A stretch of 64,000 nucleotides of DNA from Terriglobia bacterium. Lineage in GTDB: Bacteria > Acidobacteriota > Terriglobia > JAJPHL01. The position numbers and the translations under genes were made by a program. Numbering within the stretch: position 1 is the stretch's first letter; each line of letters begins with the position of its first letter. Below, one piece after another: positions 39,730 to 56,007 of the stretch. The DNA is taken from contig JAJPHL010000042.1 of NCBI GenBank assembly GCA_021325275.1, positions 124,001 to 188,000 on the forward strand, read 5' to 3'. Below the pieces are notes generated by a model. The model was given only the letters and a program-made list of their open reading frames with translations, searched no databases and was not told where the DNA came from.

Positions 39730-41103
39730 ATGAGTGTTCCTGCGCAAGAATCCAAACATCAGCTTGGCCAATCATCAAAAGGCAGCGGCTGGATTTCCTG
39801 GATCATCGTGCTGGCTTTGCTCGGCGCCGGCGGTTGGTATTACAAAAAGACGTTCATGGACCAGCAAGCGTCCGCCAACACCGCCTCCGGCAAGAACAAA
39901 GGGAAAAAGGGCATCGGCGCGGTTCCCGTAGTTCTGGCCGGGGTGACGCGCGGCGATATGCCGGTGTACCTGCGCGGTCTGGGATCGGTGCTGGCGCTCA
40001 ATACCGTCACGGTCCACAGCCGCGTCGATGGTCAACTGATGACCGTCGGATTCAAGGAAGGGCAATTCGTGCGCGAAGGCGATTTGCTCGCGCAAATCGA
40101 TCCGCGGCCGTTTGAAGTGATGCTGGAACAAGCCGAAGGCCAACTGGCGCACGACAAAGCCGCCCTCGCCGACCTGCAACTGAATTACGAGCGCTTTAAA
40201 TCGCTCTACAAAGACGGCGTCATCGCCAAGCAGCAAGTCGACACACAGCTCTCGCAAGTGGGAACGCTCGAAGGATCGATCAAGAGCGATCAGGCGCAGA
40301 TCGACAACGCCAAGCTGCAATTGACGTACTCGAAGATTCATTCGCCGATCAACGGCCGCATTGGATTGCGCCTCGTCGATCCCGGCAACATCGTGCACGC
40401 TTCCGATACGCAGGGCATGCTGGTGATCACGCAGATGCAGCCGATCGCCGTGACGTTCAACCTGCCGCAAGAGAGCCTGCCGCAGGTCTACAAGAAACTG
40501 CGCGCCGGCGAAGAACTGCCGGTGGAAGCGTTCGATTCCACCAGCACCAGCAAAATTGCCAGCGGAAAATTGCTCACCATCGACAATGAGATCGATCCGA
40601 CGACGGGAACGTACAAACTGAAGGCGCAGTTTCCCAACGAAGATCACGCCTTGTTCCCGAATCAATTCGTGAACGTTCGCATGCGGGTGGACACCGAGCG
40701 CGGACTTTCGCTCGCGCCCGCGGCGGCGATCCAGCGCGGACCGCAAGGCAATTACGTTTTCCTCGCCGAGGACAATAAGGCCAAGGTGCGGCCTGTCACC
40801 GTGGCCATCACCGAGGGAGAAACGGTCGGAGTGAAAGACGGGTTGAACGTCGGCGACATGGTGGTGATCGACGGCATCGACAAACTCGATGACGGTTCGG
40901 CGATCAACACTGGAGGCGGCGGTGGAAAACGCGGCGGAAAGGGCAAGAACAAAGAAGCAGCCGACGATAACGCCGCGCCCGCGGGCGGCAGTGCAGGTAG
41001 CGGCAAAGACGCCGCCGGGTCGAAAGACACGCCGGCTCCGGCGAAAGCGGGCGGCAAGGGCGGCAGCGGTTCCAAGCGTCACGGAGGCTCGCGCGCCGAA
41101 TGA
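39730..41103 (+). CDS. RND efflux periplasmic adaptor (MdtA/AcrA-like)
   Basis: A 457-residue membrane-fusion protein. A membrane segment ([20 protein letters not shown]) is followed by the lipoyl half-motifs [20 protein letters not shown] and [19 protein letters not shown], a coiled-coil hairpin (~125-190), [14 protein letters not shown] and a beta-barrel. The last ~65 residues are a Gly/Lys/Ala tail not expected in MdtA. TTTGGAGGAAG precedes ATG 39730. First gene of a three-gene operon with two RND pumps. Confidence 0.92.
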
Positions 41104-44100
41104 GTCCGTCTCGGCCATTTATTCTGCGGCCGGTTGCCACCAGCCTGCTGATGGCGGGCATTTTGCTCGCCGGCTTTGTCGCGTACCGGCAACTGCCGGT
41201 GTCCGCGTTGCCGCAGGTGGACTATCCCACCATTCAGGTGCTCACGTTTTACCCCGGCGCCAGTCCCGACGTGATGGTGTCTTCTATCACCGCGCCGCTG
41301 GAGCGCCAGTTCGGACAAATCCCCGGATTGAATCAGATGATGTCGACGAGCTCCTACGGAAGCTCGATCGTCACGCTGCAGTTTTCGCTTGAACTGAATA
41401 TCGACGTCGCGGAGCAGCAAGTGCAAGCCGCGATCAACGCGGCGGCGCAACTTTTGCCGCGCGACTTGCCGAATCCGCCGGTCTACAACAAGGTGAATCC
41501 CGCGGACGCGCCGATTCTCACGCTCGCGCTTACGTCGGACACGCTGCAGCTCTCGAAAGTGGAGGATTTGGCCGACACGACGCTGGCGCAAAAAATCTCG
41601 CAGCTTCGCGGCGTCGGTTTGGTGAGCATTTCCGGCGGCCAGCGCCCCGCCGTTCGCGTGCAGGCGAATCCCATGTCGCTAGCGTCTTACGGAATGACGC
41701 TCGAGGATCTACGGACCGCGCTCGGGCAGGCCAACGTCGATCAAGCCAAGGGGAATTTCGATGGCAAGTTGCAGGCCTTCACCATCGGCGCGAACGATCA
41801 GCTTTTGTCGAGCGAAGGCTACGCCAAGTTGATCGTGGCGTATCGCAACGGCGCACCGGTGCGGCTGGTCGATGTCGCCAAAGTGATCGACGGTGCGCAG
41901 GACACCAAGCAAGCCGCGTGGTCGGCGGTCGCGGATGCGAGCGGCAAGACCGAACTCAAGCCGAGCGTGATTCTCAACATCCAGCGCCAGCCGGGCGCGA
42001 ACATCATTGAAGTGGTCGATCGCGTGAAGAATTTGCTGGCCACGCGCACCAGTATCCCGCCCACGGTTTCGATCACGCCGCTCACCGATCGCACGCTGAC
42101 CATCCGCGCGTCGGTGGCAGACGTGCAGTTTGAATTGATGCTCACCGTCGCGCTCGTGGTGATGGTGATTTTCCTGTTCCTGCGCAGTTTCGCCGCCACA
42201 ATCATTCCGAGTATCGCCGTGCCGCTCTCCATCGTTGGGACATTTGGCGTGATGTACTTGCTCGGCTACAGTTTGAACAATCTCTCGCTGATGGCGTTGA
42301 CGATTTCGACAGGTTTTGTGGTCGACGACGCCATCGTGATGATTGAAAACATTTCGCGCTACATCGAAATGGGCGATACGCCGCTGGAAGCCGCGCTGAA
42401 GGGCTCCGAGCAAATCGGGTTCACCATCGTTTCGCTGACCGTTTCGCTGATCGCCGTGCTGATCCCGCTGTTGTTCATGGCCGACATCGTCGGCCGGCTC
42501 TTCCGCGAATTCGCCGTGACGCTGGCCGTCACAATCCTGATGTCGGCGGTGGTATCGCTGACGCTGACGCCGATGATGTGCTCGCGCCTGCTACGTCACG
42601 AGCGTCCCGAGGATCAAGGTGCGTTGTATCGCCTCTCGGAGCGTGCGTTCGAGGCGGTGATCGCGTTTTACGGACGCACGCTGCAAGTGGTGCTGCGATT
42701 CCGCGCGCTCACGCTACTCGTGACGGTGGGTACCCTCGTCGCCACGATCTATCTTTACGTCATCGTGCCGAAAGGATTTTTCCCGGTGCAGGATACCGGC
42801 GTGATTCTAGGCATTTCCGAAGCGCCGCAATCGTCCTCCTTCGATTCGATGGCGCGGAATCAGCAGGAGCTCGCCAAGATCATCATGCAGGACCCGGCGG
42901 TCTCGAGCTTGTCGTCGTTCATCGGCATCGACGGCACGAATACTACGATGAACAGCGGCCGGATTCAGATCAACTTAAAGTCGATTGAGGAGCGCGGCGT
43001 TTGGTCCGATGAAGTGATCCGGCGGTTGCAGCCGAAACTCGCCGGCGTGCAGGGAATCACGTTGTTCATGCAGCCGGTGCAGGATCTCACCGTGGAAGAT
43101 CGCGTGAGCCGCACGCAATTTCAGTTCAGTTTGGAAGACTCGAGCCAAGCCGAGCTCGACCAGTGGACCCCGAAATTCCTGGAAGCGTTGCAAGGCTTGC
43201 CGCAGTTGCGCGACGTGGCCACCGATCAGCTCAACTTAGGCTTGCGCTCGCATTTGGTGATCGATCGCGACACGGCGTCGCGGTTGGGAATTCTGCCCTC
43301 CGACATCGACAACGCACTGGAAGATTCGTTCGCGCAACGCCAAGTGTCCACGATGTACACGCAGTTGAATCAGTACAAAGTGGTGCTCGAAGTCGATCCC
43401 AAGTTCCAGAAGAATCCCTCGTCGTTGGGCGACATTTACTTGCGTACCGCATCGGGCGGTCAAGTGCCGCTTGCGGCGCTTACGCATCTCGAAACCGGGA
43501 ACATGCCGTTGGCGCTCAATCACCAGGGGCAATTTCCGGTGGTGACGGCCTCATTCAATCTCGCGCCGGGCACGTCGCTCGGTGATGCCGTCGACGCCAT
43601 CAATCGCACGCGCGATCAACTGAACATGCCACCGAGCGTGCAGCAGGCCTATCAAGGCACGGCGCAAGCGTTCCTGAACTCGCTGGCCAGCGAGCCGTTA
43701 TTGATTCTCGCCGCCCTCGTGACGGTGTACATCGTGCTGGGTGTTTTGTACGAAAGCTACATTCATCCGATCACGATTTTGTCCACGCTGCCGTCGGCGG
43801 GCGTGGGCGCGATCGTGGCGTTGCAACTTTGCAAGACGGAATTCAGCGTGATCGCACTGATCGGCATCATTCTATTGATTGGTATCGTGAAGAAGAACGC
43901 CATCATGATGATCGACTTCGCGCTGGAGGCCGAGCGCGAGCACGGCAAGACGCCGCTCGATGCGATTTATGAAGCGTGCCTGTTGCGTTTCCGTCCCATC
44001 ATGATGACCACGATGGCCGCGCTGCTCGGTGGATTGCCGCTGGCCTTGGGCGCGGGCACGGGTTCCGAATTGCGGCGTCCGTTGGGCATCACGATTGTCG

Positions 44101-44234
44101 GTGGATTGATTTTGAGCCAGATCTTGACGCTGTACACGACGCCGGTGGTTTATTTGGCGTTCGATTGGGTCGCCCGGCGCATGGGTTTGAGCACCGCGCC
44201 TGTGGGTGAGCCGTTGGAATCGACCGGGGATTAA
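41100..44234 (+). CDS. RND efflux permease 1 (MdtB-like)
   Basis: A 1044-residue inner-membrane pump of the HAE1 RND family. The N-terminus [20 protein letters not shown], the [20 protein letters not shown] loop, [20 protein letters not shown] with the proton-relay Asp pair in TM4, and the repeat-end [20 protein letters not shown] are all standard. It uses proton flow to expel drugs or detergents with the adaptor. It is one of two adjacent RND subunits, as in MdtBC heterotrimers. Start overlaps the adaptor stop (ATGA). Confidence 0.94.
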
Positions 44235-44235
44235 A

Positions 44236-47200
44236 ATGAATATCTCCTCCAACATCTCGGCGCCGTTTATTCGCCGCCCTGTCGCGACATCGCTGTTGAC
44301 CGCGGCAATCTTACTGGCCGGCGCGCTCGCGTTTCGCTTCCTTCCCGTCGCGCCGCTGCCGCAAGTGGAATTTCCCACGGTTTCGGTTAACGCCGGCTTA
44401 CCCGGTGCGAGTCCCGAAACGATGGCATCGGCTGTTGCGACGCCGCTGGAACGTCAGTTCGGCCGCATTTCCGGCGTTACGGAAATGACATCGTCGAGCC
44501 AGCTCGGTTCGACGAGCATCACGCTGCAATTCGATTTGAACCGCAACGTGGACGCGGCTGCGCGCGACGTGCAGGCAGCGATCAACGCCGCCGCCGGACA
44601 ACTTCCTGCTGATTTGCCGAGCGTTCCCACGTGGCGCAAGCAGAATCCTTCGGACTCGCCGATCATGATTCTGGCGCTGACCTCCACCACGATTCCGCTT
44701 CCCAAGGTCTACGACGCCGCCGATTCAATTCTGGCGCAGAAACTTTCCCAGATCGACGGCATGGGACAAGTGGGACGCTGGGGCGGAGCGCAACCGGCGG
44801 TGCGTGTACAAGCGAATCCCACGGCGCTGAATAAATACGGCATCAGCTTGGAAAAAGTGCGCAGCGTGTTGAACACGGCCAATGCCATCGGTCCCAAGGG
44901 ATCGTTCGCCGACGCTCGCAATACTTACTACATCACCGACACCGATCAGATTTTCAAGGCTGCCGACTACCAGAAGCTGCTGGTGGGTTATCGCAACGGC
45001 GCGCCGGTGCGCCTGAGCGACGTCGCGTTGGTCACCGATTCCCAACAGGACCGCCGCAACGACGGCATCGCCTCTCGCCGCGAGGACGATGGCTCGACAT
45101 CGGGCGGCCCCGCGGTTTCGCTGGTGCTTTTTAAGCAGCCCAACGCCAACATCATCGACACGGTCGATCAGGTCTACAAGGAATGGGATAGCCTGCAGGC
45201 ATCGATTCCGCCGGCGATGAAAATGCAAGTGGTGCTCGACCGCACCACGACGATCCGTGCATCGATCTCCGACGTGGAGAAAAGCCTGGTGATCTCGGTG
45301 CTGCTCGTGGTGCTGGTGGTTTTCGTTTTCCTGCGCAGCGGATGGGCCACCATGATTCCCAGCGTCGCCGTGCCGCTATCGCTGGTGGGCACGTTCGGCG
45401 TGATGTACCTGCTCGGCTACAGTCTGGACAACTTGTCGCTGATGGCGCTGACGATTTCCACCGGATTCGTCGTCGACGACGCCATCGTTGTGATCGAGAA
45501 CGTCACGCGTTATTTGGAAATGGGCATGAAGCCGCTGGAAGCCGCGTTCAAGGGCGCCAGCGAGATCGGATTCACCGTAATCTCCATGTCCACGTCGCTG
45601 GTGGCCGTGTTCATCCCGATTCTCGCGATGGGTGGCATCATCGGCCGCTTGTTCCGCGAGTTTGCGGTGACGCTTTCGACGGCGATCGCCGTGTCGCTGT
45701 TGGTCTCGCTTACCACCACGCCGATGATGTGCGCCAAATTCCTGAAGCACGAGGATGGCAAACACGGCTTCTTCTATCGGCTCTCGGAAAAAGGCTTCAA
45801 TCTTTTGCACGATGGCTACGCGTTTTGCTTGCGCTGGGTGCTGGGCCACCAGCCGCAAGTGTTGTTCATCACGATTCTCACGGTGTGCCTGAACGTCGCG
45901 CTGTTTGTGAAAACGCCCAAGGGATTTTTCCCGCAGCAGGACACCGGCCGTTTGAACGGCTCGATCACCGCGGATCAAGACACATCGTTCTCGGCCATGG
46001 ATGCGAAGATGCGCCAGTTCGCGGCCATTGTCCAGGACGATCCGGCGGTGGATTCTCTGAACGCGTCGACGGGCGGCGGTGGCGGCGGTGGCGGCAGCGC
46101 GATCAACACCGCGCGCATGTTCGTTCAGTTGAAGGACCTCGAAGTCCGCAAGATCGACGCCGACGGTGTGATGGCTCGCCTGCGCGGGAAACTCTCGAAG
46201 ATTCCCGGCGCGGTCCTGGTGTTGCAAGCGGTGCAGGACGTACGCGTGGGTGGTCGCGGCTCCAGCGCGCAGTATCAATACACGCTGCAATCGGAACACA
46301 TCGAGGACCTCACCAAGTACGCGCCGCAGATGCTCGAAAGACTTCAGCACCTGAGTTTGATCACCGACGTGACCAGCGATCAGCAGACGCACGGACTGCA
46401 AAGCATGCTGAAAGTCGATCGCGACGCGGCGTCGCGCATGGGCGTGTCGATGACCGCCATCGACAACACGCTGAACGACGCGTTTGGACAGCGTCAGGTA
46501 TCGAACCTCTACATGTCCCTGAATCAATATCACGTGGTGATGGAAGTTTCGCCCGAGTACCTCTCGAACCCCGACGCGTTGAAGAGCATTTACGTGCCGG
46601 CGTCGAACGGCACGATGATTCCGCTCAGCGCGTTCTCGCACTATGAGAACAGCTACTCGGCGTTGTCGGTGAATCACCAGGGCCAAGTTCCTTCCATCAC
46701 GATTTCCTTCAACTTGTCGAAGGGTGTGGCGCTCGGCGATGCCACCGATGCCATCGACGCGATCGCGGCGGAAGTGGGAATGCCGTCCAGCATTCGCGCC
46801 GGTTACCAGGGAACGGCTGCGGCGTTCCAGGATTCGCTGGCCTCCCAGCCGATCCTGATTATTACCGCGCTGACCACCGTGTACATCGTGCTCGGCGTTT
46901 TGTACGAAAGCTACATTCACCCGATCACGATTCTTTCCACGCTGCCTTCGGCGGGTGTGGGCGCGCTCTTGGCGATCCAGTTTTTCAAAACGGACTTGAA
47001 CGTGATCGCGCTGATCGGCATCCTCCTGCTGATCGGAATCGTGAAGAAAAACGCCATCCTGATGATCGACTTCGCGATCGGCGCGCAACGCGTCGGTGGT
47101 ATGTCGGCGCTCGAAGCGATCCACAAAGCCTGCTTGCTGCGTTTCCGTCCCATCATGATGACCACGCTGGCCGCGCTATTCGGCGCGTTGCCGTTAGCGC

Positions 47201-47391
47201 TGGGCACTGGCACGGGATCGGAACTGCGGCGCCCCTTGGGAATCACGATTGTCGGCGGATTGATCTTGAGTCAAGCGCTCACACTGTTTACGACGCCGGT
47301 GGTCTACCTCTACATGGACCGCCTCTCGGCGTGGTTCGCGCGCTATCGCCGCCGCGCCGTGTCGCCGGTGGTCGCCGAGCCGGCGCATTAG
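44236..47391 (+). CDS. RND efflux permease 2 (MdtC-like)
   Basis: A 1051-residue HAE1 RND pump, paralogous to the preceding gene along its length. It starts MNISSNISAPFIRRPVATSL, has [20 protein letters not shown] in TM4 and [20 protein letters not shown] in the second half. A poly-Gly loop (TGGGGGGGGSAIN, residues ~615-630) lies in the periplasmic porter domain and is absent from its partner. It starts 1 nt after the previous stop, supporting co-assembly. It ends 8 nt before the convergent protease gene. Confidence 0.94.
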   Translation: MNISSNISAPFIRRPVATSLLTAAILLAGALAFRFLPVAPLPQVEFPTVSVNAGLPGASPETMASAVATPLERQFGRISGVTEMTSSSQLGSTSITLQFDLNRNVDAAARDVQAAINAAAGQLPADLPSVPTWRKQNPSDSPIMILALTSTTIPLPKVYDAADSILAQKLSQIDGMGQVGRWGGAQPAVRVQANPTALNKYGISLEKVRSVLNTANAIGPKGSFADARNTYYITDTDQIFKAADYQKLLVGYRNGAPVRLSDVALVTDSQQDRRNDGIASRREDDGSTSGGPAVSLVLFKQPNANIIDTVDQVYKEWDSLQASIPPAMKMQVVLDRTTTIRASISDVEKSLVISVLLVVLVVFVFLRSGWATMIPSVAVPLSLVGTFGVMYLLGYSLDNLSLMALTISTGFVVDDAIVVIENVTRYLEMGMKPLEAAFKGASEIGFTVISMSTSLVAVFIPILAMGGIIGRLFREFAVTLSTAIAVSLLVSLTTTPMMCAKFLKHEDGKHGFFYRLSEKGFNLLHDGYAFCLRWVLGHQPQVLFITILTVCLNVALFVKTPKGFFPQQDTGRLNGSITADQDTSFSAMDAKMRQFAAIVQDDPAVDSLNASTGGGGGGGGSAINTARMFVQLKDLEVRKIDADGVMARLRGKLSKIPGAVLVLQAVQDVRVGGRGSSAQYQYTLQSEHIEDLTKYAPQMLERLQHLSLITDVTSDQQTHGLQSMLKVDRDAASRMGVSMTAIDNTLNDAFGQRQVSNLYMSLNQYHVVMEVSPEYLSNPDALKSIYVPASNGTMIPLSAFSHYENSYSALSVNHQGQVPSITISFNLSKGVALGDATDAIDAIAAEVGMPSSIRAGYQGTAAAFQDSLASQPILIITALTTVYIVLGVLYESYIHPITILSTLPSAGVGALLAIQFFKTDLNVIALIGILLLIGIVKKNAILMIDFAIGAQRVGGMSALEAIHKACLLRFRPIMMTTLAALFGALPLALGTGTGSELRRPLGITIVGGLILSQALTLFTTPVVYLYMDRLSAWFARYRRRAVSPVVAEPAH

Positions 47392-47399
47392 CCGGCGCC

Positions 47400-48359
47400 T
47401 TATTGTTTGAACTTGACCTGGTTCTCGCGCAGGAAATCTATCAAAGAGTCCAACGTGCTTGCGTAGCCCAAACCTGCTTGATCGTGCTCGCCGCGGGCCT
47501 GGACGACACCGATTACTTTGCCGTCCGGCGTGAACAAGGGGCCGCCACTGTTGCCGAGCCACGGACTCTTATCGATGATCTGTTCTTGAGCATACCGAAC
47601 GGCCAAAGCCGCGCGAGCCGTAACGGGTCGCGCGGAATCCAGCGGGAATCCAATGAAACCGAGCATCGAACCGTCTGCCGGCTCAGAGGTGGCAAATGTC
47701 ACAGGGCGGATCTTGGACTTCACGACCCGATCGGCGAAAGGATTGGTTTTGGTTCGACAAAGCGCCAAATCGCGAGCCGCATCCGCCGTGCACGTGCGGA
47801 TTTCGAACCGCCGCATGTTCATGTCGGCGGCTCCTTCGCCCCAGCTTCTTCCGGGAACGTACACCGCGCAGCCCTGAATCTTCCTGATACCTTGCAGGAC
47901 ATGGGCCGCCGTCACGAACGTTCCGTCCTGATCCACGAAGAATCCCGTTCCGGCAATGGCGCGGCCCTTCGTAACTTCATCGGACCAGGGGCGGCACGAG
48001 ATTGGGATCACCGACATTCGCACATTGTTGGCCGCGCCGACAAACGCGTCGGACTGCGGCCGGCTCGTACGCAGTACCGTGGTCAAAGTGACGGCATTCA
48101 GCAAACACAAGATGCCAAGAAGGCAAGCGGTGAGGATATGGAAGCGCGACGGTTCTGGCGATGGTCGATGGATCCAGCCGGAATGGCTGGTGGCGGAAAG
48201 GTTCCGGTCAAGCGAAGAGACAAACTCGACACGCGCGCTCCACACATGGCGTGTGGGGTCCGTCAGGATCGATGCTGAGTCCGGTACGTCATACGCTGCT
48301 CTTTGGAATGCACTGGCCCTCCCATGTGAGCGGCTTACTTCGGGCTCAGCGTAGCACAC
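47400..48359 (-). CDS. Membrane-anchored trypsin-like serine protease
   Basis: A 319-residue protein. The first ~72 residues are polar and unrecognised; a single membrane segment (FHILTACLLGILCLLNAVTL) follows at ~73-92, and the rest is a chymotrypsin-fold protease with the full triad: His in GTFVTAAHVLQ, Asp in DAARDLALCRT and Ser in SPWLGNSGGPLF. No PDZ domain is seen, unlike HtrA/DegP. The protease domain is probably outside the cytoplasm, though the opposite orientation cannot be excluded. Last gene of the leftward accessory cassette, 48 nt after the upstream gene. The start codon is uncertain. Confidence 0.82.
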   Translation of the reverse strand: MCYAEPEVSRSHGRASAFQRAAYDVPDSASILTDPTRHVWSARVEFVSSLDRNLSATSHSGWIHRPSPEPSRFHILTACLLGILCLLNAVTLTTVLRTSRPQSDAFVGAANNVRMSVIPISCRPWSDEVTKGRAIAGTGFFVDQDGTFVTAAHVLQGIRKIQGCAVYVPGRSWGEGAADMNMRRFEIRTCTADAARDLALCRTKTNPFADRVVKSKIRPVTFATSEPADGSMLGFIGFPLDSARPVTARAALAVRYAQEQIIDKSPWLGNSGGPLFTPDGKVIGVVQARGEHDQAGLGYASTLDSLIDFLRENQVKFKQ

Positions 48360-48407
48360 ACCAGCCGTGGAATCAACCGGCTTGCGTTACAGTTGGAATC
48401 GGAACTT

Positions 48408-49598
48408 TTAGCGCATCCGGCGCCGGGGCGGTGCGTGGTGCTCGAACTCGCGATTTTCCCTCAGCAGGCGCGCCAACTCGGGCCACGTTCGTTGATCGTA
48501 CCCCGATCGATCTTGCTGCCAGGAGCGGACGAGTGCCACAGCGTCATCCTCACGACCGTTTTCCGGTGCGTGTTTTCCGGATTCCTCCAGGGCCGTCTGC
48601 CAGCCCACCGTTCGCAGATAACGCAACTCGTAGGAATCTTCACCCTTGCGCAGGTACTTCAGACTGGAATCCTTGCGGGCGTCGTCGTGAAGTTTTTTCA
48701 GGACCACCGTCAAGGCCGGCGCATCAAGGGGATGACGCCAGTGTTCGATCACAAGATCTTTGGCCGCCGCTCGGTTCTGCTTCGTGGCATCTTGCTGGAA
48801 TCGGCGCTTAATCACATTGGGAACCTGCGACGCCACGCGTTCATGTTTTTCCTCGACGACATTCCATGCCTGTTGAAGGGGCATTTTATCGGCGGCGTTC
48901 AGCAATTCAGAGAAGAAGACACGGCGTTTCCTGACGGAAAGTTCCGCGGCTTCAAAAGATTGCTTATACTCAAAGGCCTTTACCCTGATTTCAACGCCCC
49001 GTGGCGTCGGCGGCAATGGTCCGGGTTCCTGCTCTCGCTCTCGCGTTTCGCGCACCTGAACTTGATACCCATTCCGCGGCGCCACCAACGGCCACAACCG
49101 GCAATCCATGACCTTGGCGCAGGGACTGGCGAGCGTGGCGACGAACCAAAACATTTGGTACGAGCGCACATTGGCGGCGGGATCGCAACCCAGAGCCACC
49201 AGCCCGGTCTCGGGTGCGGTGTTTTTTGGCATGCGCACCAACTTCGCGTAGGCGGCTTCGAATGGGCAGTCTTCGACCGAGTAGGGACGGGCTCCGTGCG
49301 CTAGTTTTGAAAATGAATCGTAACCGGCGCCGTCGCCGAGAGCTTCGCCGGTGAGCCGCTTGAACAGCGATAGGCCCACACGGTTAGCGCCACGGAAATA
49401 ACAACCGGGAAATTCGAGCTCAACCAGCGGGTCTGGGTTCGCGAAAAACAGGACGCTATCCACCGATGTCGCCTCCGATCGCCAGCCTAGGAGTGCGAAG
49501 TGGGCCAGTCCTAATAGTACCACTAAACAGTTCCATCTGCTTATCCGCGACTCAAGTTGGTTAACTTCATCGCACGCTGTCCGGATCTGTCCATCCAA
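48408..49598 (-). CDS. Unknown cassette protein B (paralogue of protein A)
   Basis: A 396-residue protein of no family I recognise. A hydrophobic stretch (WNCLVVLLGLAHFALLGW, ~22-39) may anchor it. It is a full-length paralogue of the gene at 50864-51955; shared landmarks are GC-x3-GANR (FPGCYFRGANRVG), a DCPFEAAYA block, MFWF, DCRLWPLVA, QAWN, HPLDAPAL and SYELRYLRTVGW. The last ~40 residues (DDAVALVRSWQQDRSGYDQR, then TWPELARLLRENRE) resemble the small antitoxin-like proteins that precede PIN toxins. No PIN gene lies directly after this copy; the protease gene does. Confidence 0.7.
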   Translation of the reverse strand: MDGQIRTACDEVNQLESRISRWNCLVVLLGLAHFALLGWRSEATSVDSVLFFANPDPLVELEFPGCYFRGANRVGLSLFKRLTGEALGDGAGYDSFSKLAHGARPYSVEDCPFEAAYAKLVRMPKNTAPETGLVALGCDPAANVRSYQMFWFVATLASPCAKVMDCRLWPLVAPRNGYQVQVRETREREQEPGPLPPTPRGVEIRVKAFEYKQSFEAAELSVRKRRVFFSELLNAADKMPLQQAWNVVEEKHERVASQVPNVIKRRFQQDATKQNRAAAKDLVIEHWRHPLDAPALTVVLKKLHDDARKDSSLKYLRKGEDSYELRYLRTVGWQTALEESGKHAPENGREDDAVALVRSWQQDRSGYDQRTWPELARLLRENREFEHHAPPRRRMR

Positions 49599-49773
49599 TG
49601 GGACGCTGCGGCAGGCCTCGAGGTGGCAGGTTTGTGACCAGATCCCGAATGTATATGCGAAAAAAGGGGTTACTGGTTCAATCGAACCTGTTCGGCTAGG
49701 AGACTAACGCTCAATGTGGGCGGATTAGTTACCGGATTCCGTGATCGTTGGCCACCTGGCGAGTGGAATTTGG

Positions 49774-49795
49774 CGCCGATTGTTCCAAATCGGCG
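49774..49795 (-). terminator. Hairpin after the PIN gene
   Basis: CGCCGATT (49774-49781) pairs with AATCGGCG (49788-49795) around a 6-nt loop, starting 6 nt past the stop of the leftward PIN gene. No run of T follows on the minus strand, so termination would be incomplete and the downstream cassette genes could still be read. Confidence 0.45.
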
Positions 49796-49800
49796 GGCCG

Positions 49801-50871
49801 TCAGCGGCCTGCCTTGTTGACGTAGCGCCGGCTGCGGACGACGAGTTTTTGGGTCTTCACGCGCTCGATGATTTGTTGGCACTCCGAGACCATCGCGTCG
49901 GCCATGGATGGTTTTTTTCGTTTCGTTCGTCTCGTTCGTTTGAGGAACACGCGCTCGATCCTCGCCAATGACCCTGCCTCGTAGCCGGCCTCCACGCCCT
50001 CCGGAGCGATGAGGAAGGTCTTGGCGGCGATGTCGAATTTTTCCGCCGCTTGAGCGATCAACTTCCTCATCAAGGGTCGCTGGGCCTTATAACCGTTGTC
50101 GAGGATGATCAACAGGTCCAGTTTCTCGACGGCGGAAGGATCGACGCAAGGTTCTTTCCCCGTGGCCCAAGCTGTTTCGCTCAGATGGTCGAACGTGCAC
50201 TCCCTGTTGATCGTGGAGCAGAGAGCGCTGACAACATTTCCGAATCTCGACTCAAGCGCCGGCGCGATGACGCCGACGCAGAGCGGCTCTGCAGCGACAA
50301 CTTCCGGCTTGAACCGGACCATGTCGTTGTGGCAAGTCTCATCATCCAGCTCCATCTCCTTCGATCGTCTAGGCCGCTGTGAGCGCGGCATGATGTTGTG
50401 CCACAAGTGCGCTCTCCCAAAGCGGGATAGGTGCCGGAGGTCGTCGGTCGCAACAATGCCGTCCAGACTCTCCGCCTGCGCCGCCAGGATGAGATCGATT
50501 TCCAACGCCGGATCCGGCTTCGATTGGCGACCGATTCGCCGCTCCATCGCCCAAAACTGCGCTGCCCTTCGCAAGACTTCCGGTGTCAACGGGAGACGAT
50601 GGATATTGCCGGCCTGGCAAAACTCGTCGAGACGCTCCAGCGATTTTTTTCGGTCTTCCTCTTTAATCTTGTCTACCCGTTTCTGGAAACGGTTAATTTC
50701 GATGAGATTGATGGCTCGGCGCAGCTCGAACTCGATGATCTCCGGAACCACGAACTCGGCTCCGCGTTCTTGAAGAAACGCGAACCAGTCCGCGATTTCC
50801 CGGCTCTGGTCCTCTTCCGGATGCACGAGTTTGCCGAGCGGTCCGCTATCCAAAAGGATCGCTTCAGCCAT
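49801..50871 (-). CDS. PIN-domain nuclease fused to an unknown C-terminal domain
   Basis: A 356-residue protein. Residues 1-160 form a PIN domain: strand one ILLDSGPLGKL (D8), VVPEIIEFELRRAI (acidic residues 44-49), LEIDLILAAQAES (D126) and IVATDDLRHLSRF (D143/D144), together the acidic RNase site. Typical solo PIN toxins end near HLWHNI; here ~190 more residues follow, including LLIILDNGYKAQRPLMRKLI and KTFLIAPEGVEAGYEAGSLA and a very basic KRTRRTKRKKP segment. I do not recognise that half. ATG 50871 overlaps the stop of the upstream gene by 8 nt, as in toxin-antitoxin operons. Confidence 0.72.
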   Translation of the reverse strand: MAEAILLDSGPLGKLVHPEEDQSREIADWFAFLQERGAEFVVPEIIEFELRRAINLIEINRFQKRVDKIKEEDRKKSLERLDEFCQAGNIHRLPLTPEVLRRAAQFWAMERRIGRQSKPDPALEIDLILAAQAESLDGIVATDDLRHLSRFGRAHLWHNIMPRSQRPRRSKEMELDDETCHNDMVRFKPEVVAAEPLCVGVIAPALESRFGNVVSALCSTINRECTFDHLSETAWATGKEPCVDPSAVEKLDLLIILDNGYKAQRPLMRKLIAQAAEKFDIAAKTFLIAPEGVEAGYEAGSLARIERVFLKRTRRTKRKKPSMADAMVSECQQIIERVKTQKLVVRSRRYVNKAGR

Positions 50872-51955
50872 CTTGCCGGCTCCCGAGGAAGGAGCGATTC
50901 TCCGCCAGGATCCGAGCCAACTCCGGCCACGTCCGCCGATCATACCCGGATTTGTCCGCTTGCCAGGACCGCACCAGCGCCACCGCATCGTTCTTGCTCG
51001 CCCCATTCTTTGGCGCGGCCGCCACGTTGCGCCGCGGCAGCTTCCCCATGGCTGGCGCCCACTCGTAATTGCGCAAATACCGAAGCTCAAAACCGTTGGC
51101 AGCAGGCGAGACGTACCGCAGCTTGGGACTTTCCGCCACACGGTTCAGGATCTTCGGCATGAGATGCACCAGCGCGGCTGCATCCAAGGCGTGCTCCCAA
51201 AGGTGTGTCAGTTCCTTCTTCGCCTTCCGAATACTGGCCGAAGTCGATTTCTTCGTGCACACATCCACCACCGCCTTGGGCGCGCGCTCGGCGATCTTGG
51301 GAAACTTGGCCGCCCCCTCGTCCCAGGCCTGGTCCAATCTCGCTCCCTTCTCCAGTTCGGCCAGCACGTGAAAATAAAAGTGCTTCGGTTTGTCCACTTC
51401 GAGTTTGGATCGCCTCACCGGCTCCCTGAAACTCAGCGCCGGGATGTTCACCGTAACGCTCGAAGGCGTGCGCGCCAGAAGACGAAAGCCGTCGGCGCTG
51501 GACTTGCTGTCGACGATGAAGGCCGCGACAGGCGCCCCAGCCAGCAACGGAAGGAGCCGATAGTCGATGCCGCGTACTTGGTTCCGCGCTGCCGCGTCCG
51601 GCGCCGGCGAAGCTTGAAACCAGAAAAGCCGATAGCGCCGGGACGGCGACTGCGCATGCCGGTCGGCATGCCCGTCAACGGCTGCGATGCCAGGCACCAT
51701 TGTCTTCTTTTTATTCTTGGTCTTTTCCGCTTCGATCGTGGCGTAGGTTTGCTCGAACGGGCAGTGATCCAACAAGTAGGCGTGCGGCGCATTCACAACA
51801 TCGCAGAAGATCCTGCCTTCTTGCAGCCCATTTCTGGTGATCTTTTTGAGCAACTTGCCGGCAATTCGATTCGCACCGACAATTACGCACCCGCTCATGT
51901 CCATGCGGACCATCGGATCGAGAGCAAAATCAGTATAAGCGTCAGGGAAGGTCAT
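50864..51955 (-). CDS. Unknown cassette protein A with antitoxin-like C-terminal tail
   Basis: A 363-residue, apparently soluble protein without a recognised family. Landmarks: SGCVIVGANRIAG, LLDHCPFEQTYATI, RRYRLFWFQ, GIDYRLLPLLAGAPVAAFIV, QAWDEGAAKFPKIAE, EHALDAAALVHLMPKIL and GFELRYLRNYEWAPAM; the same blocks in the same order occur in the gene at 48408-49598. The last ~40 residues (NDAVALVRSWQADKSGYDRR, then TWPELARILAENRS) look like a PIN-partner antitoxin, and the PIN gene starts inside its last codons. It may therefore both perform the unknown main function and neutralise the PIN protein. First gene of the leftward cassette. Confidence 0.72.
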   Translation of the reverse strand: MTFPDAYTDFALDPMVRMDMSGCVIVGANRIAGKLLKKITRNGLQEGRIFCDVVNAPHAYLLDHCPFEQTYATIEAEKTKNKKKTMVPGIAAVDGHADRHAQSPSRRYRLFWFQASPAPDAAARNQVRGIDYRLLPLLAGAPVAAFIVDSKSSADGFRLLARTPSSVTVNIPALSFREPVRRSKLEVDKPKHFYFHVLAELEKGARLDQAWDEGAAKFPKIAERAPKAVVDVCTKKSTSASIRKAKKELTHLWEHALDAAALVHLMPKILNRVAESPKLRYVSPAANGFELRYLRNYEWAPAMGKLPRRNVAAAPKNGASKNDAVALVRSWQADKSGYDRRTWPELARILAENRSFLGSRQDG

Positions 51956-52426: not shown

Positions 52427-52516
52427 GGAGGAATGGCCGAGCGGTTTATGGCAGCGGTCTTGAAAACCGCAGGTGTCGAAAGGCACCCGGGGGTTCGAAT
52501 CCCTCTTCCTCCGCCA
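52427..52516 (+). tRNA. tRNA-Ser (UGA anticodon), CCA encoded
   Basis: A class II tRNA of 90 nt. Acceptor GGAGGAA pairs with TTCCTCC (52506-52512), G73 and CCA follow. The anticodon arm is GCGGT-CTTGAAA-ACCGC with TGA at 52461-52463, and the long variable arm (GGTGTCGAAAGGCACC) is typical of serine tRNAs; the T arm is GGGTTCGAATCCC. Confidence 0.95.
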
Positions 52517-52755
52517 ATTTGTCTTTTTGATCGGCGCGGGTGTTTCGGCGGCAACCGGTCGGGAAAGGCGGCACTTTTCCGGCTCCCGTCTTATCGGCAC
52601 TTGGCAAGCAAACGCGAGGTCGATGCCGAACCGCAGTGCTCGCTTTTCTCCGGCGGGCGCGATCATCGCGATAATGTCTGGTTTCCACCACGGAACGGTA
52701 TGCTAAGATTGCGCGCGATGCGGCTCCGTTGAGCGGAGCCTGGAAGGGGCTTCGC

Positions 52756-55700
52756 TTGCGCACTCTTGGGCTTACTATCGCTCCTCTCTTGCTGTTGGCG
52801 TCTCCCTTTCTGTCCGGCCAGGTGCAGTTTACTGTGGGCAGTTCGGCGCGGCAGGTGCGCGTCGAAGGCCTCACCGAGAACGTGGGCAATGTGATCATAA
52901 CGGCGCACACCGCCGGAACGCTCCGAGCCGGTTCCACCATCACGATCACATATAACACGAGCGTCACCGGCGCCATTGGCCCCAAGGCTGTCCTCGGCGT
53001 TATGGGGAATACGCTCTGTTTCGCGCCGTGTGGGAACGCCGGTGTAACGGCCTCCGGCACCCAACTCACACTCAGTTTCCCTGCCGACCTCCAGTTCGGA
53101 GTGAATGACTATTTAACCGTTTCGGAAGTCCGGTTGGACGTCAACCACTTGGGAGTGGCCGTCCCAACGGTCACTGCCACGCTGGCCGCCACTTCCCCCT
53201 CGACGATTTTTCCGATTACGTTTTCCAACAACAACATCGTGGTTGCGAACATTGTAGACCCGTCGCTGACCCTGAGCTTCGTTCCGGCCACCGCCGCGAT
53301 CACTACGTGCCAGGTTGCGACGCAATCGTTCTCGGTTGTCGTGAAGGAACGCGCTTCGGCCAGCCTGACCACCCTTTCGGACGAAAACAAGCTCACACCT
53401 GACTTTCCGGTGACCAACGGGACCGCGATCGTGGTCGATATCAGCGACGTCCCGGCGGGCTTGGCGGTAACTCCCGGCACGCCGGTCTATTCCGGAGTAA
53501 ATCGGTTGACCGTGCCTGCGGCGCAGACCTCCTCCAGTCAGTTTGCGGCGTTGACCTTTGTGTATACGGTGACGGCCGACGATACGACTACGGCGGAAAC
53601 CTATACGCTGCCTTTTACGCTCGGCCTGCCAGCCGGTACGTCGGGGACCTCCATCGGGGCGATCGGAACGGCCGTGAACGTGGCGGCAACGGCGGTCGTT
53701 GGACCCCAACAAAGCTCCAACGTGGCCGTCGCGTTCAATTCCAACACCGAGCCCTCCCCAACGCCCGTGGCGACGGTCATGGACTGCCCGACTTCGATAT
53801 CGGTACAACCGACTTCCTTGACCTTCTCAGCCGCCCAAGGCCAAACGGCCCCGGCTCAAACGCTGGCGGTTACCACTTCCGCAGCCTGGACGGCCACCGC
53901 CACAACTTCCCTCGGCGGCAACTGGCTTTCGATCACTCCGCAAACCGGAACGGGCTCGGCCAACCTGACCGTTACCGCGGCGACCGGAACGCTGGCGGCG
54001 GGAACCTACAGCGCGTCGATCAAAGTTGCCGCGAATGGTGGCGCGAATCCCTTCCAATTGATCCCGGTCACCTTTACGGTGACCGCATCTCCTCAGGCGG
54101 TTGTGGTCACGCCGTCCTCCCTGACCTTCACGACTACGGCGGGCCAGAGCGCCGCGACTCAGCAACTCACGTTTTCGCTAGCGTCGGGCGTCTCGTTTAA
54201 CCTCGGTTGGACATCCACCGTCAGCAGCACCGGCAATTGGCTCTCCCTTAGTCCGACGAGCGGGAGCGTCGCCAGCACCACCGTAACGGCATCCACGGCG
54301 AGTTTGCCTGCCGGGACTTATAGCGGTTCGATTGTGCTTAACTTTTCCGGCGCGGCGACGTCTTCGCTGACCGTGCCGGTAACCTTGACCGTCAATGCCC
54401 CTACGCCCACGGCGGTGGTCACGCCGTCCTCATTGATCTTCACGACAACGGCCGGCCAGAGCCCCGCGACGCAGCAGCTCGCGTTGTCGCTCGCGTCGGG
54501 CTCCGCTTTCAACCTGGCATGGACGTCCACGGTCACCAGCACCGGCGGCACTTGGCTTTCCATCAGTCCCGCATCCGGCACCGGTGCGGCGATCGTCGCG
54601 ACGGCCGCCGCGGCGAGTTTGCCCGCAGGTACCTATAGCGGTTCGATCGTGATTCATTTCACAGTCGCCGCAACATCGCTTACCGTCCCGGTTACGCTGA
54701 CGGTGAACGCGGTCTCTACCGCGTTTACAGCCAAGCCGTCTTCTTTGACCTTTACGACGACGGCTGGCCAGAGCCTTGCGAATCAACAACTCACGTTGTC
54801 GCTGAATTCAGGCGCCGCGTTTAACGTTCCATGGGCGGCCGTCGCCAGCAGCACCGGCAACTGGCTTTCCGTCAATCCGTCGTCTGGAAGCGGCTCGACG
54901 ATTACCGTGATGGCCGCCACCTCCAGCCTGGCCACCGGTTCCTTTAGCGGATCGATCACGATCACAACTACCGATTCCCAACTGAACTCGGTCACCGTGC
55001 CTGTGACGTTGACGGTAACGGCGGCGCCGATCGCCGCTTCTCCCACGCCGCTTCGGCTTGCGGCGACCGCCGCCAATCCGGGGCCCACGGAAATCGTCAA
55101 CGTCACTGTGGGTTCATCGACGGCCACGTGGACCGCCATGACGCAGACGACCACCGGGGGCAACTGGTTGTCGATCAGTCAGACTTCTGGAACCGGCAAC
55201 CAGCCGATTACGGTGAGCGGCAACGCGGTCTCTCTGTCGGCGGGAATTTACGGCGGATCGATCGTGTTTACACGTACCGATGGAACGGGGACCGCCACCG
55301 TGCCCGTGACGCTGGTCATGGGGATTCAAACGGCGGGCGCCGATCAGACGCTGAAGTATCCGCTGGTTTCAACGGGCACCTGCTCCTCGAGCTTCTTTAT
55401 CGCCACGGCGCAGCCGGTGACGCAGCAAGATGAAGGCGTCCTGGCCTTGGTGGTCTCGATTAACCAGGGGTTGCTGGTGGGCGGCTTCAACTTGGGCGGG
55501 GGATTTGCGGCCAACGGTGGATCTCCTGGTTTCGGACAATTCAAGATGCCCACCAATCTCCCGCCGGCGTCGGTGAATATTCAGTTGAACGCGCAAAACA
55601 TCGTCGGCGAAACCGGGGCTTTGAACCTGGTGATGGCCGTGAACCAGGTGACGGCGACTGGCACGGCGTTGATCCAAACCACTAACGGGCCTCCGCCATT

Positions 55701-56007
55701 GAATCTGGTGACTCCGCTGCTGATGCCGGGCAATTTCTATACGGTAACGGTGACCAGCGCCTTCGGGTCTGCGCGAGGCAAATTTCAATTGCAGTTGATC
55801 TCGCCGAACAGCGGTTTTGAAGGCGGCGTGGTCGCGGGCGGCGTAGCCATTCAGGGTGTGACCGACTACGGTGGATTCTGCCTGCCCTCGAGTCAGGTCG
55901 TGAGCGTACAAGTGCAGGAGAAAACAACTTTCGGCGCCACGGGTGCGGGAAATCTGACGATCGGAATGCAGGATAGCTCCGGCAAGGAGTATCCGAACCA
56001 ACCGTAA
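52756..56007 (+). CDS. Secreted protein with tandem BACON-like repeats
   Basis: A ~1083-residue secreted protein. The start is uncertain: TTG 52756 has GGAAGGGG 6 nt upstream and gives RTLGLTIAPLLLLASPFLSG as signal peptide; TTG 52729 is an alternative. Residues up to ~340 are beta-rich with no clear family. Five ~95-residue BACON-type units follow, each with PSSLTFTTTAGQ-, TGNWLSLSPTSG- and LPAGTYSGSI-like blocks. The last ~230 residues are another beta domain (GNFYTVTVTSAFGSARGKFQ). BACON domains are linked to carbohydrate or surface-glycan binding; an adhesin-like role outside the cell is inferred. Confidence 0.75.
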   Translation: MRTLGLTIAPLLLLASPFLSGQVQFTVGSSARQVRVEGLTENVGNVIITAHTAGTLRAGSTITITYNTSVTGAIGPKAVLGVMGNTLCFAPCGNAGVTASGTQLTLSFPADLQFGVNDYLTVSEVRLDVNHLGVAVPTVTATLAATSPSTIFPITFSNNNIVVANIVDPSLTLSFVPATAAITTCQVATQSFSVVVKERASASLTTLSDENKLTPDFPVTNGTAIVVDISDVPAGLAVTPGTPVYSGVNRLTVPAAQTSSSQFAALTFVYTVTADDTTTAETYTLPFTLGLPAGTSGTSIGAIGTAVNVAATAVVGPQQSSNVAVAFNSNTEPSPTPVATVMDCPTSISVQPTSLTFSAAQGQTAPAQTLAVTTSAAWTATATTSLGGNWLSITPQTGTGSANLTVTAATGTLAAGTYSASIKVAANGGANPFQLIPVTFTVTASPQAVVVTPSSLTFTTTAGQSAATQQLTFSLASGVSFNLGWTSTVSSTGNWLSLSPTSGSVASTTVTASTASLPAGTYSGSIVLNFSGAATSSLTVPVTLTVNAPTPTAVVTPSSLIFTTTAGQSPATQQLALSLASGSAFNLAWTSTVTSTGGTWLSISPASGTGAAIVATAAAASLPAGTYSGSIVIHFTVAATSLTVPVTLTVNAVSTAFTAKPSSLTFTTTAGQSLANQQLTLSLNSGAAFNVPWAAVASSTGNWLSVNPSSGSGSTITVMAATSSLATGSFSGSITITTTDSQLNSVTVPVTLTVTAAPIAASPTPLRLAATAANPGPTEIVNVTVGSSTATWTAMTQTTTGGNWLSISQTSGTGNQPITVSGNAVSLSAGIYGGSIVFTRTDGTGTATVPVTLVMGIQTAGADQTLKYPLVSTGTCSSSFFIATAQPVTQQDEGVLALVVSINQGLLVGGFNLGGGFAANGGSPGFGQFKMPTNLPPASVNIQLNAQNIVGETGALNLVMAVNQVTATGTALIQTTNGPPPLNLVTPLLMPGNFYTVTVTSAFGSARGKFQLQLISPNSGFEGGVVAGGVAIQGVTDYGGFCLPSSQVVSVQVQEKTTFGATGAGNLTIGMQDSSGKEYPNQP
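54103..55017 (+). repeat. Three near-identical coding repeats of ~300 nt
   Basis: Units starting near 54110, 54420 and 54735 share long stretches at the DNA level, for example around ACGGC(G/C)GGCCAGAGC and GGTACCTATAGCGGTTCGAT-type sequence. They encode BACON units 2-4. The outer units (from 53800 and 55020) are more diverged. The similarity suggests recent duplication or gene conversion within the gene. Confidence 0.7.

Follow-up and report, generated by a model that had tools for sequence, protein, structure and literature searches.

A predicted VapC-type toxin–antitoxin locus with a large orphan antitoxin module in two copies in a Terriglobia genome

The window analyzed here is a 64,000-nucleotide stretch (contig JAJPHL010000042.1, positions 124,001 to 188,000) of the 6.9 Mb genome of a Terriglobia bacterium (GCA_021325275.1). 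ORF analysis confirmed four ORFs at 47400–51955, all on the minus strand, as listed in a preliminary description of this DNA. Gene A (50864–51955, minus strand), with a GGAGG ribosome site ahead of its ATG, encodes a 363-aa antitoxin-tailed protein. It is followed by a gene for a 356-aa PIN-domain protein, by gene B (48408–49463, minus strand; 351 aa), a paralogue of A that ends in the same kind of tail (35% identity overall), and by a gene for a trypsin-like protease (47400–48359, minus strand). The stop of A and the start of the PIN gene overlap by the 8 nt described earlier (50864–50871, minus strand, junction GATGGCTGAA). The spacing of the remaining genes required revision. The most likely start of gene B is GTG 49463, not TTG 49598: this GTG has a GGAGG motif in front of it and aligns with the start of A, and the 45-codon extension up to TTG 49598 lacks coding-type GC3 (0.56). 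The gap between the PIN gene and B is thus ~337 nt instead of 202 nt. The 48-nt gap given between B and the protease gene is not secure, as the protease start is uncertain (GTG 48359 has no good ribosome site, and the coding signal ahead of the membrane segment is weak).

The cassette is flanked by tRNA-Ser (52427–52516) on the A side and by an RND efflux pump gene pair (41100–47391) on the protease side, in agreement with the preliminary description, which had regarded this placement as typical of an island. Sequence signs of a genomic island are absent: GC content across the cassette is flat (0.56–0.61), no direct repeat of the tRNA-Ser end was seen, and no integrase was seen when the long ORFs in the window's right half were inspected, so the island reading is not supported. 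In relatives, the best RND matches had no tRNA nearby, and these relatives are too distant to reveal an empty site. The two RND genes are adjacent and alike (72% DNA identity over the compared part) and form a single operon with a membrane-fusion protein; more such pairs occur elsewhere in the genome. Beyond the tRNA, positions 52729–56007 encode a long exported-type protein with repeated immunoglobulin-like segments (BACON-type by eye), and a 125-nt DNA stretch is repeated within its gene, at 54064 and 54376. Promoter and terminator scans gave nothing beyond chance; the signals that exceeded chance were the conservation between A and B, the Pfam matches and the tail score relative to shuffles.

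The PIN assignment made for the second gene is borne out. Residues 1–161 (50389–50871, minus strand) form a VapC-type nuclease domain (PF01850, E 8e-8) in which the acids D8, E49 and D126 are invariant in eight family members and an acid is present at the fourth position (D143/D144). The AlphaFold2 (AF2) model of this part has pLDDT values mostly of 75–93, and Foldseek matched it to VapC of the Shigella VapBC complex (E 1.2e-5, target TM 0.79). The closest PIN homologues are 142–164 aa long and continue at most 18 residues past the PIN fold. The window protein continues for ~195 aa (residues 162–356; 49801–50388, minus strand) with coding-like GC3 (0.73). This C-terminal extension is an orphan: it was absent from all PIN homologues examined and had no matches among families, plasmids, phages or viral contigs.

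The C-terminal tail of A (~40 residues, 323–363; 50867–50989, minus strand, starting DAVALVRSWQADKSGYDRRTWPELARILAENR) is homologous to small antitoxins encoded upstream of PIN genes, as at loci L003, L010, L011, L014, L015, L052 and others. A profile built solely from antitoxins without the SGYD motif gave 15.5 bits for A and 13.6 bits for B, values that none of the scored shuffles reached (457 and 494, best 7.8). The tail of A is collinear with the small antitoxins to the last residue; as in L003, ENR is followed by nine residues before the stop. The 19 aligned relatives have an aromatic residue near the C-terminus, usually in K-L-F-P or R-F-D-D; A has Q in its place and B lacks the residue, a loss that could weaken binding by the tail. 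The tail of B (48411–48545, minus strand, starting DAVALVRSWQQDRSGYDQRTWPELARLLRENR) is identical to that of A at 28/36 positions (78%), compared with 91/299 (30%) for the remainder of the two proteins (Fisher p 1e-7). The tails are thus under stronger constraint, as would be expected if both were held to one toxin surface; a recent exchange between A and B is a conceivable alternative source of the identity. The lost aromatic, together with the occurrence of the locus in a single genome, would also fit a decaying or inert VapBC pair whose antitoxin became fused to a captured foreign protein and whose toxin is no longer used. We consider such decay quite unlikely, because A, the PIN domain, its extension and B all retain long open frames with coding-type GC3, the PIN acids are kept, and the tail is strongly conserved between A and B.

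The tail recurs with PIN genes well beyond this genome. Leaving the cassette aside, we counted 22 distinct PIN loci that are intact (19 plus three on cyanobacterial plasmids); at 21 of them the upstream gene ends in a recognizable tail, and the one at L054 is too diverged to call. These tail/PIN loci span at least four phyla (Acidobacteriota, Planctomycetota, Chloroflexota and Cyanobacteriota). The 8-nt overlap between antitoxin and PIN gene seen in the window is also present in six independent relatives, and most other pairs overlap by 4 nt. Loci with the 8-nt overlap are L003/L012, L006/L016, L010, L011, L014, L015 and L052, and record titles place L012 (= L003) in Terriglobia, L011 in Anaerolineae, L014 in Phycisphaera, L015 in Chloroflexota and L010 in Planctomyces. 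The combination of a nuclease-fold toxin with an antitoxin-like tail, suggested in the preliminary description, therefore stands: relatives of the tail are standalone antitoxins adjoining PIN genes. This antitoxin family has no Pfam or NCBIfam model. Its tail lies at the C-terminus of RHH-like, DUF433, coiled-coil or DUF5678-like antitoxins. At L045 it follows a DUF433 domain (E 1.6e-8) in a gene that overlaps the PIN gene, and at L042 it follows a weak RHH Pfam match, an arrangement seen by eye also at L088. In some relatives the tail stands nearly alone, with no DNA-binding domain at L009, L018 and L020. Since it occurs on such varied N-termini or nearly alone, the tail is most likely the part that binds the toxin, with an exchangeable N-terminal partner.

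Several relatives show further variation. The antitoxin upstream of PIN at L011 (3611–4120) has three tandem tail copies, of which only the last keeps SGYD...WP. At L046 (1944–3419, minus strand), in another genome of the same phylum, the ORF directly upstream of the PIN gene closes with the tail and may be as long as 491 aa, its start being uncertain; it contains a stretch resembling DUF5678 and matches AbiGii weakly (PADLOC, E 1.4e-4). The window genome itself carries a second, ordinary pair (L009, 1513–2153, minus strand; contig C49, about 77663–78300), in which a 63-aa tail-only antitoxin overlaps a 150-aa PIN gene by 4 nt. The antitoxin/PIN pairs on cyanobacterial plasmids (L087, 1145–1947; L088, 1220–1953; L089, 1073–1968) are annotated as a hypothetical protein followed by a PIN, nuclease or hypothetical protein, and the genes at L089 do not overlap. 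At L006 (= L016; 1555–1852) the tail antitoxin is intact and the following PIN frame stops at 55 codons, which suggests a decayed toxin with a surviving antitoxin.

Residues 1–315 of A (51011–51955, minus strand) form an N-terminal module whose sole other copy is in B. The module is assigned to no family in Pfam, NCBIfam, PADLOC or PHROG, and over its full length gene A matched no Pfam, NCBIfam or PHROG family over cut-off. Relatives of A and B were sought in 200 relatives together with 396 genomes from the same phylum (two sets with some overlap), in 343 genomes of the phylum of L010 (a record titled Planctomyces sp.), in 84,980 species genomes (by pattern), and in viral contigs, plasmids and phages; in all of these collections only tails turned up, and no module homologue was found beyond the locus. 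Neither A nor B had a Pfam or NCBIfam match to a DNA-binding domain; such an N-terminal domain (RHH, AbrB, Phd or HTH) is usual in type II antitoxins without defining them. The AF2 model of A (mean pLDDT 40) is confident only at about residues 188–275, a predicted helical bundle, and because the model is poor, its best Foldseek match in the PDB (E 0.6) is meaningless. Three candidate identities were set aside. A Cas8e match at residues 191–262 of A was sub-threshold (15.3 bits against a cut-off of 70) and not shared by B, and a ribosomal L22-like match of B was likewise sub-threshold. A PAS domain at the N-terminus of A and B, prompted by eye (GANRIAGKLL and three strands), was dropped as unproven: an hhalign comparison with 23 PAS domains from the same genome returned a probability of 0.9%, with 4 of 200 column shuffles equally good, and model-global alignment gave no signal. 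With a module that has no homologue and a poor model, a sensing role is only a guess.

The presence of a large module conserved in two copies could also mean that the tail is a tether, A and B recruiting the PIN nuclease to an RNA or partner that either the N-terminal module or the PIN C-terminal extension recognizes. Such a targeted complex would account for an extension missing from ordinary relatives and for the constraint on the tail in both copies. We nevertheless regard it as unlikely, since most relatives bear the tail on small antitoxins that leave little room for targeting.

The fourth gene encodes a protease of the expected type (PF13365, E 4e-16; MarP family, 3.6e-13), with a triad H153/D197/S271 and one membrane segment at about residues 73–97, as judged from motif positions and a hydrophobic stretch. 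The preliminary description placed it in a four-gene unit in which the anchored protease would remove A or B and free the PIN protein as an RNase. The genes do share one strand and are closely spaced, trypsin peptidases lie beside nucleases in other conflict systems (PMC7159879), and a Zn-protease/Xre/PIN system has been predicted (PMC2701414). The nearest homologues of the protease among 240 relatives (L084 and L085, 35–36% identical), however, have export-type N-terminal segments, one of which resembles a lipoprotein signal, and four cysteines are common to them and the window protease. The catalytic domain is therefore inferred to be periplasmic and would be out of contact with A and B in the cytoplasm. 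The closest homologues (L084–L086) lie in unrelated neighborhoods with no A, B or tail beside them, and no like protease was found near other tail/PIN loci within fetched flanks of 1.5–4 kb. A proteolytic trigger thus appears very unlikely, and the protease is probably an exported neighbor outside the toxin–antitoxin unit. Recurrence of gene neighbors, which had been proposed as a check on the whole cassette, was applied to the tail: it recurs with PIN and does so without the protease.

We hypothesize that A and PIN form a VapC-type type II toxin–antitoxin pair in which the tail of A blocks PIN, the orphan module regulates this hold and B acts on that PIN as a further antitoxin. From sequence and predicted structure we assign this reading a probability of roughly 70%. 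A and PIN would be co-translated from one operon, and the C-terminal tail of A would bind the PIN domain and keep its nuclease site or groove blocked. The ~315-residue module would then set how firmly the tail holds the toxin, probably by sensing a signal, an intracellular partner or the state of the operon. B would most likely bind this PIN too, serving as a backup antitoxin or as one with different tuning, and the C-terminal extension of the toxin would be an add-on. In this scheme the domains, the gene overlap, the homology of the tail to PIN antitoxins, the retained PIN acids and the tighter constraint on the tail are observed, and we infer the binding, neutralization, toxicity and sensing steps as well as the partner of B. 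A more elaborate version, which we put forward tentatively as rather improbable, is a two-input switch in which A and B are rivals for one VapC-type nuclease: diverged sensor copies would read different signals through one type of tail, and the extra domain of the toxin would be a third control point. If true, such a switch would be a signal-gated toxin–antitoxin family whose sensor belongs to none of the known families.

The arrangement of A and PIN resembles VapBC systems (Shigella flexneri VapBC, 3tnd; FitAB, 2h1c) in its PIN toxin with invariant acids and a predicted fold matching VapC, in its directly upstream, overlapping antitoxin gene, and in the C-terminal tail of the antitoxin as the putative toxin-binding part. 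In the solved VapBC complexes treated in PMC3384007, antitoxins wrap around VapC. Among the marks of a VapC-type system, the catalytic acids and the overlapping upstream antitoxin are thus present here, and the toxin-binding tail is identified by homology. Unlike in VapBC, the antitoxin A is 363 aa long and carries an orphan N-terminal module with no recognizable DNA-binding domain, and the cassette adds a second antitoxin paralogue (B) and a 195-aa toxin extension. The closest relatives form an unnamed PIN/antitoxin subfamily (L003, L010, L011, L014, L015, L018, L020, L042–L046, L052, L053 and L087–L089) with the tail L-x-x-W...(SGYD or EQxET)...L...E-x-x-R. They share the tail, the order of the genes, in most cases the type of overlap, and the PIN subfamily (about 33–44% identity to the window PIN). 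Their antitoxins, by contrast, are mostly 45–150 aa and their PINs 142–164 aa, and a very large N-terminus, of a different kind, is found only in L046. The tail of this uncatalogued family is thereby indicated as a portable module on very different N-termini, and its motif together with the fixed overlap offers a way to find such antitoxins, which the examined records label as hypothetical proteins.

DUF433 (COG2442) is a predicted PIN antitoxin family, and its fusions to winged HTH domains show that N-terminal additions occur (PMC2701414). L045, with DUF433, then the same tail and an overlap with PIN, links these systems to the tail family, whereas A and B lack DUF433. Systems with a protease gene beside a nuclease gene, namely Zn-protease(COG2856)/Xre/PIN (PMC2701414) and the trypsin–nuclease conflict systems, differ from the window in that its protease is probably exported and shows no recurrent linkage. 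It is also a Trypsin_2, MarP/HtrA-like serine protease, in contrast to the Zn-protease, and no HTH occurs in the set. The components of the trypsin-linked ternary systems (PMC7159879), VMAP, vWA, MoxR, Trypco and EAD, are absent from all four proteins, as is Xre; Pfam carries at least one of these ternary-system families (PF19953). The earlier statement that nothing like this set was known accordingly holds for the exact gene set and fails for its PIN/antitoxin core, which is of a known kind. Should the orphan domain prove to be a sensor, the locus would make it possible to test how toxin–antitoxin pairs tie to specific signals, a disputed matter for type II systems. Compared with the systems described so far, the core of the locus is a known VapC-type toxin–antitoxin system, and what is new is the 315-aa module of the antitoxin, present twice, together with the extension of the toxin.
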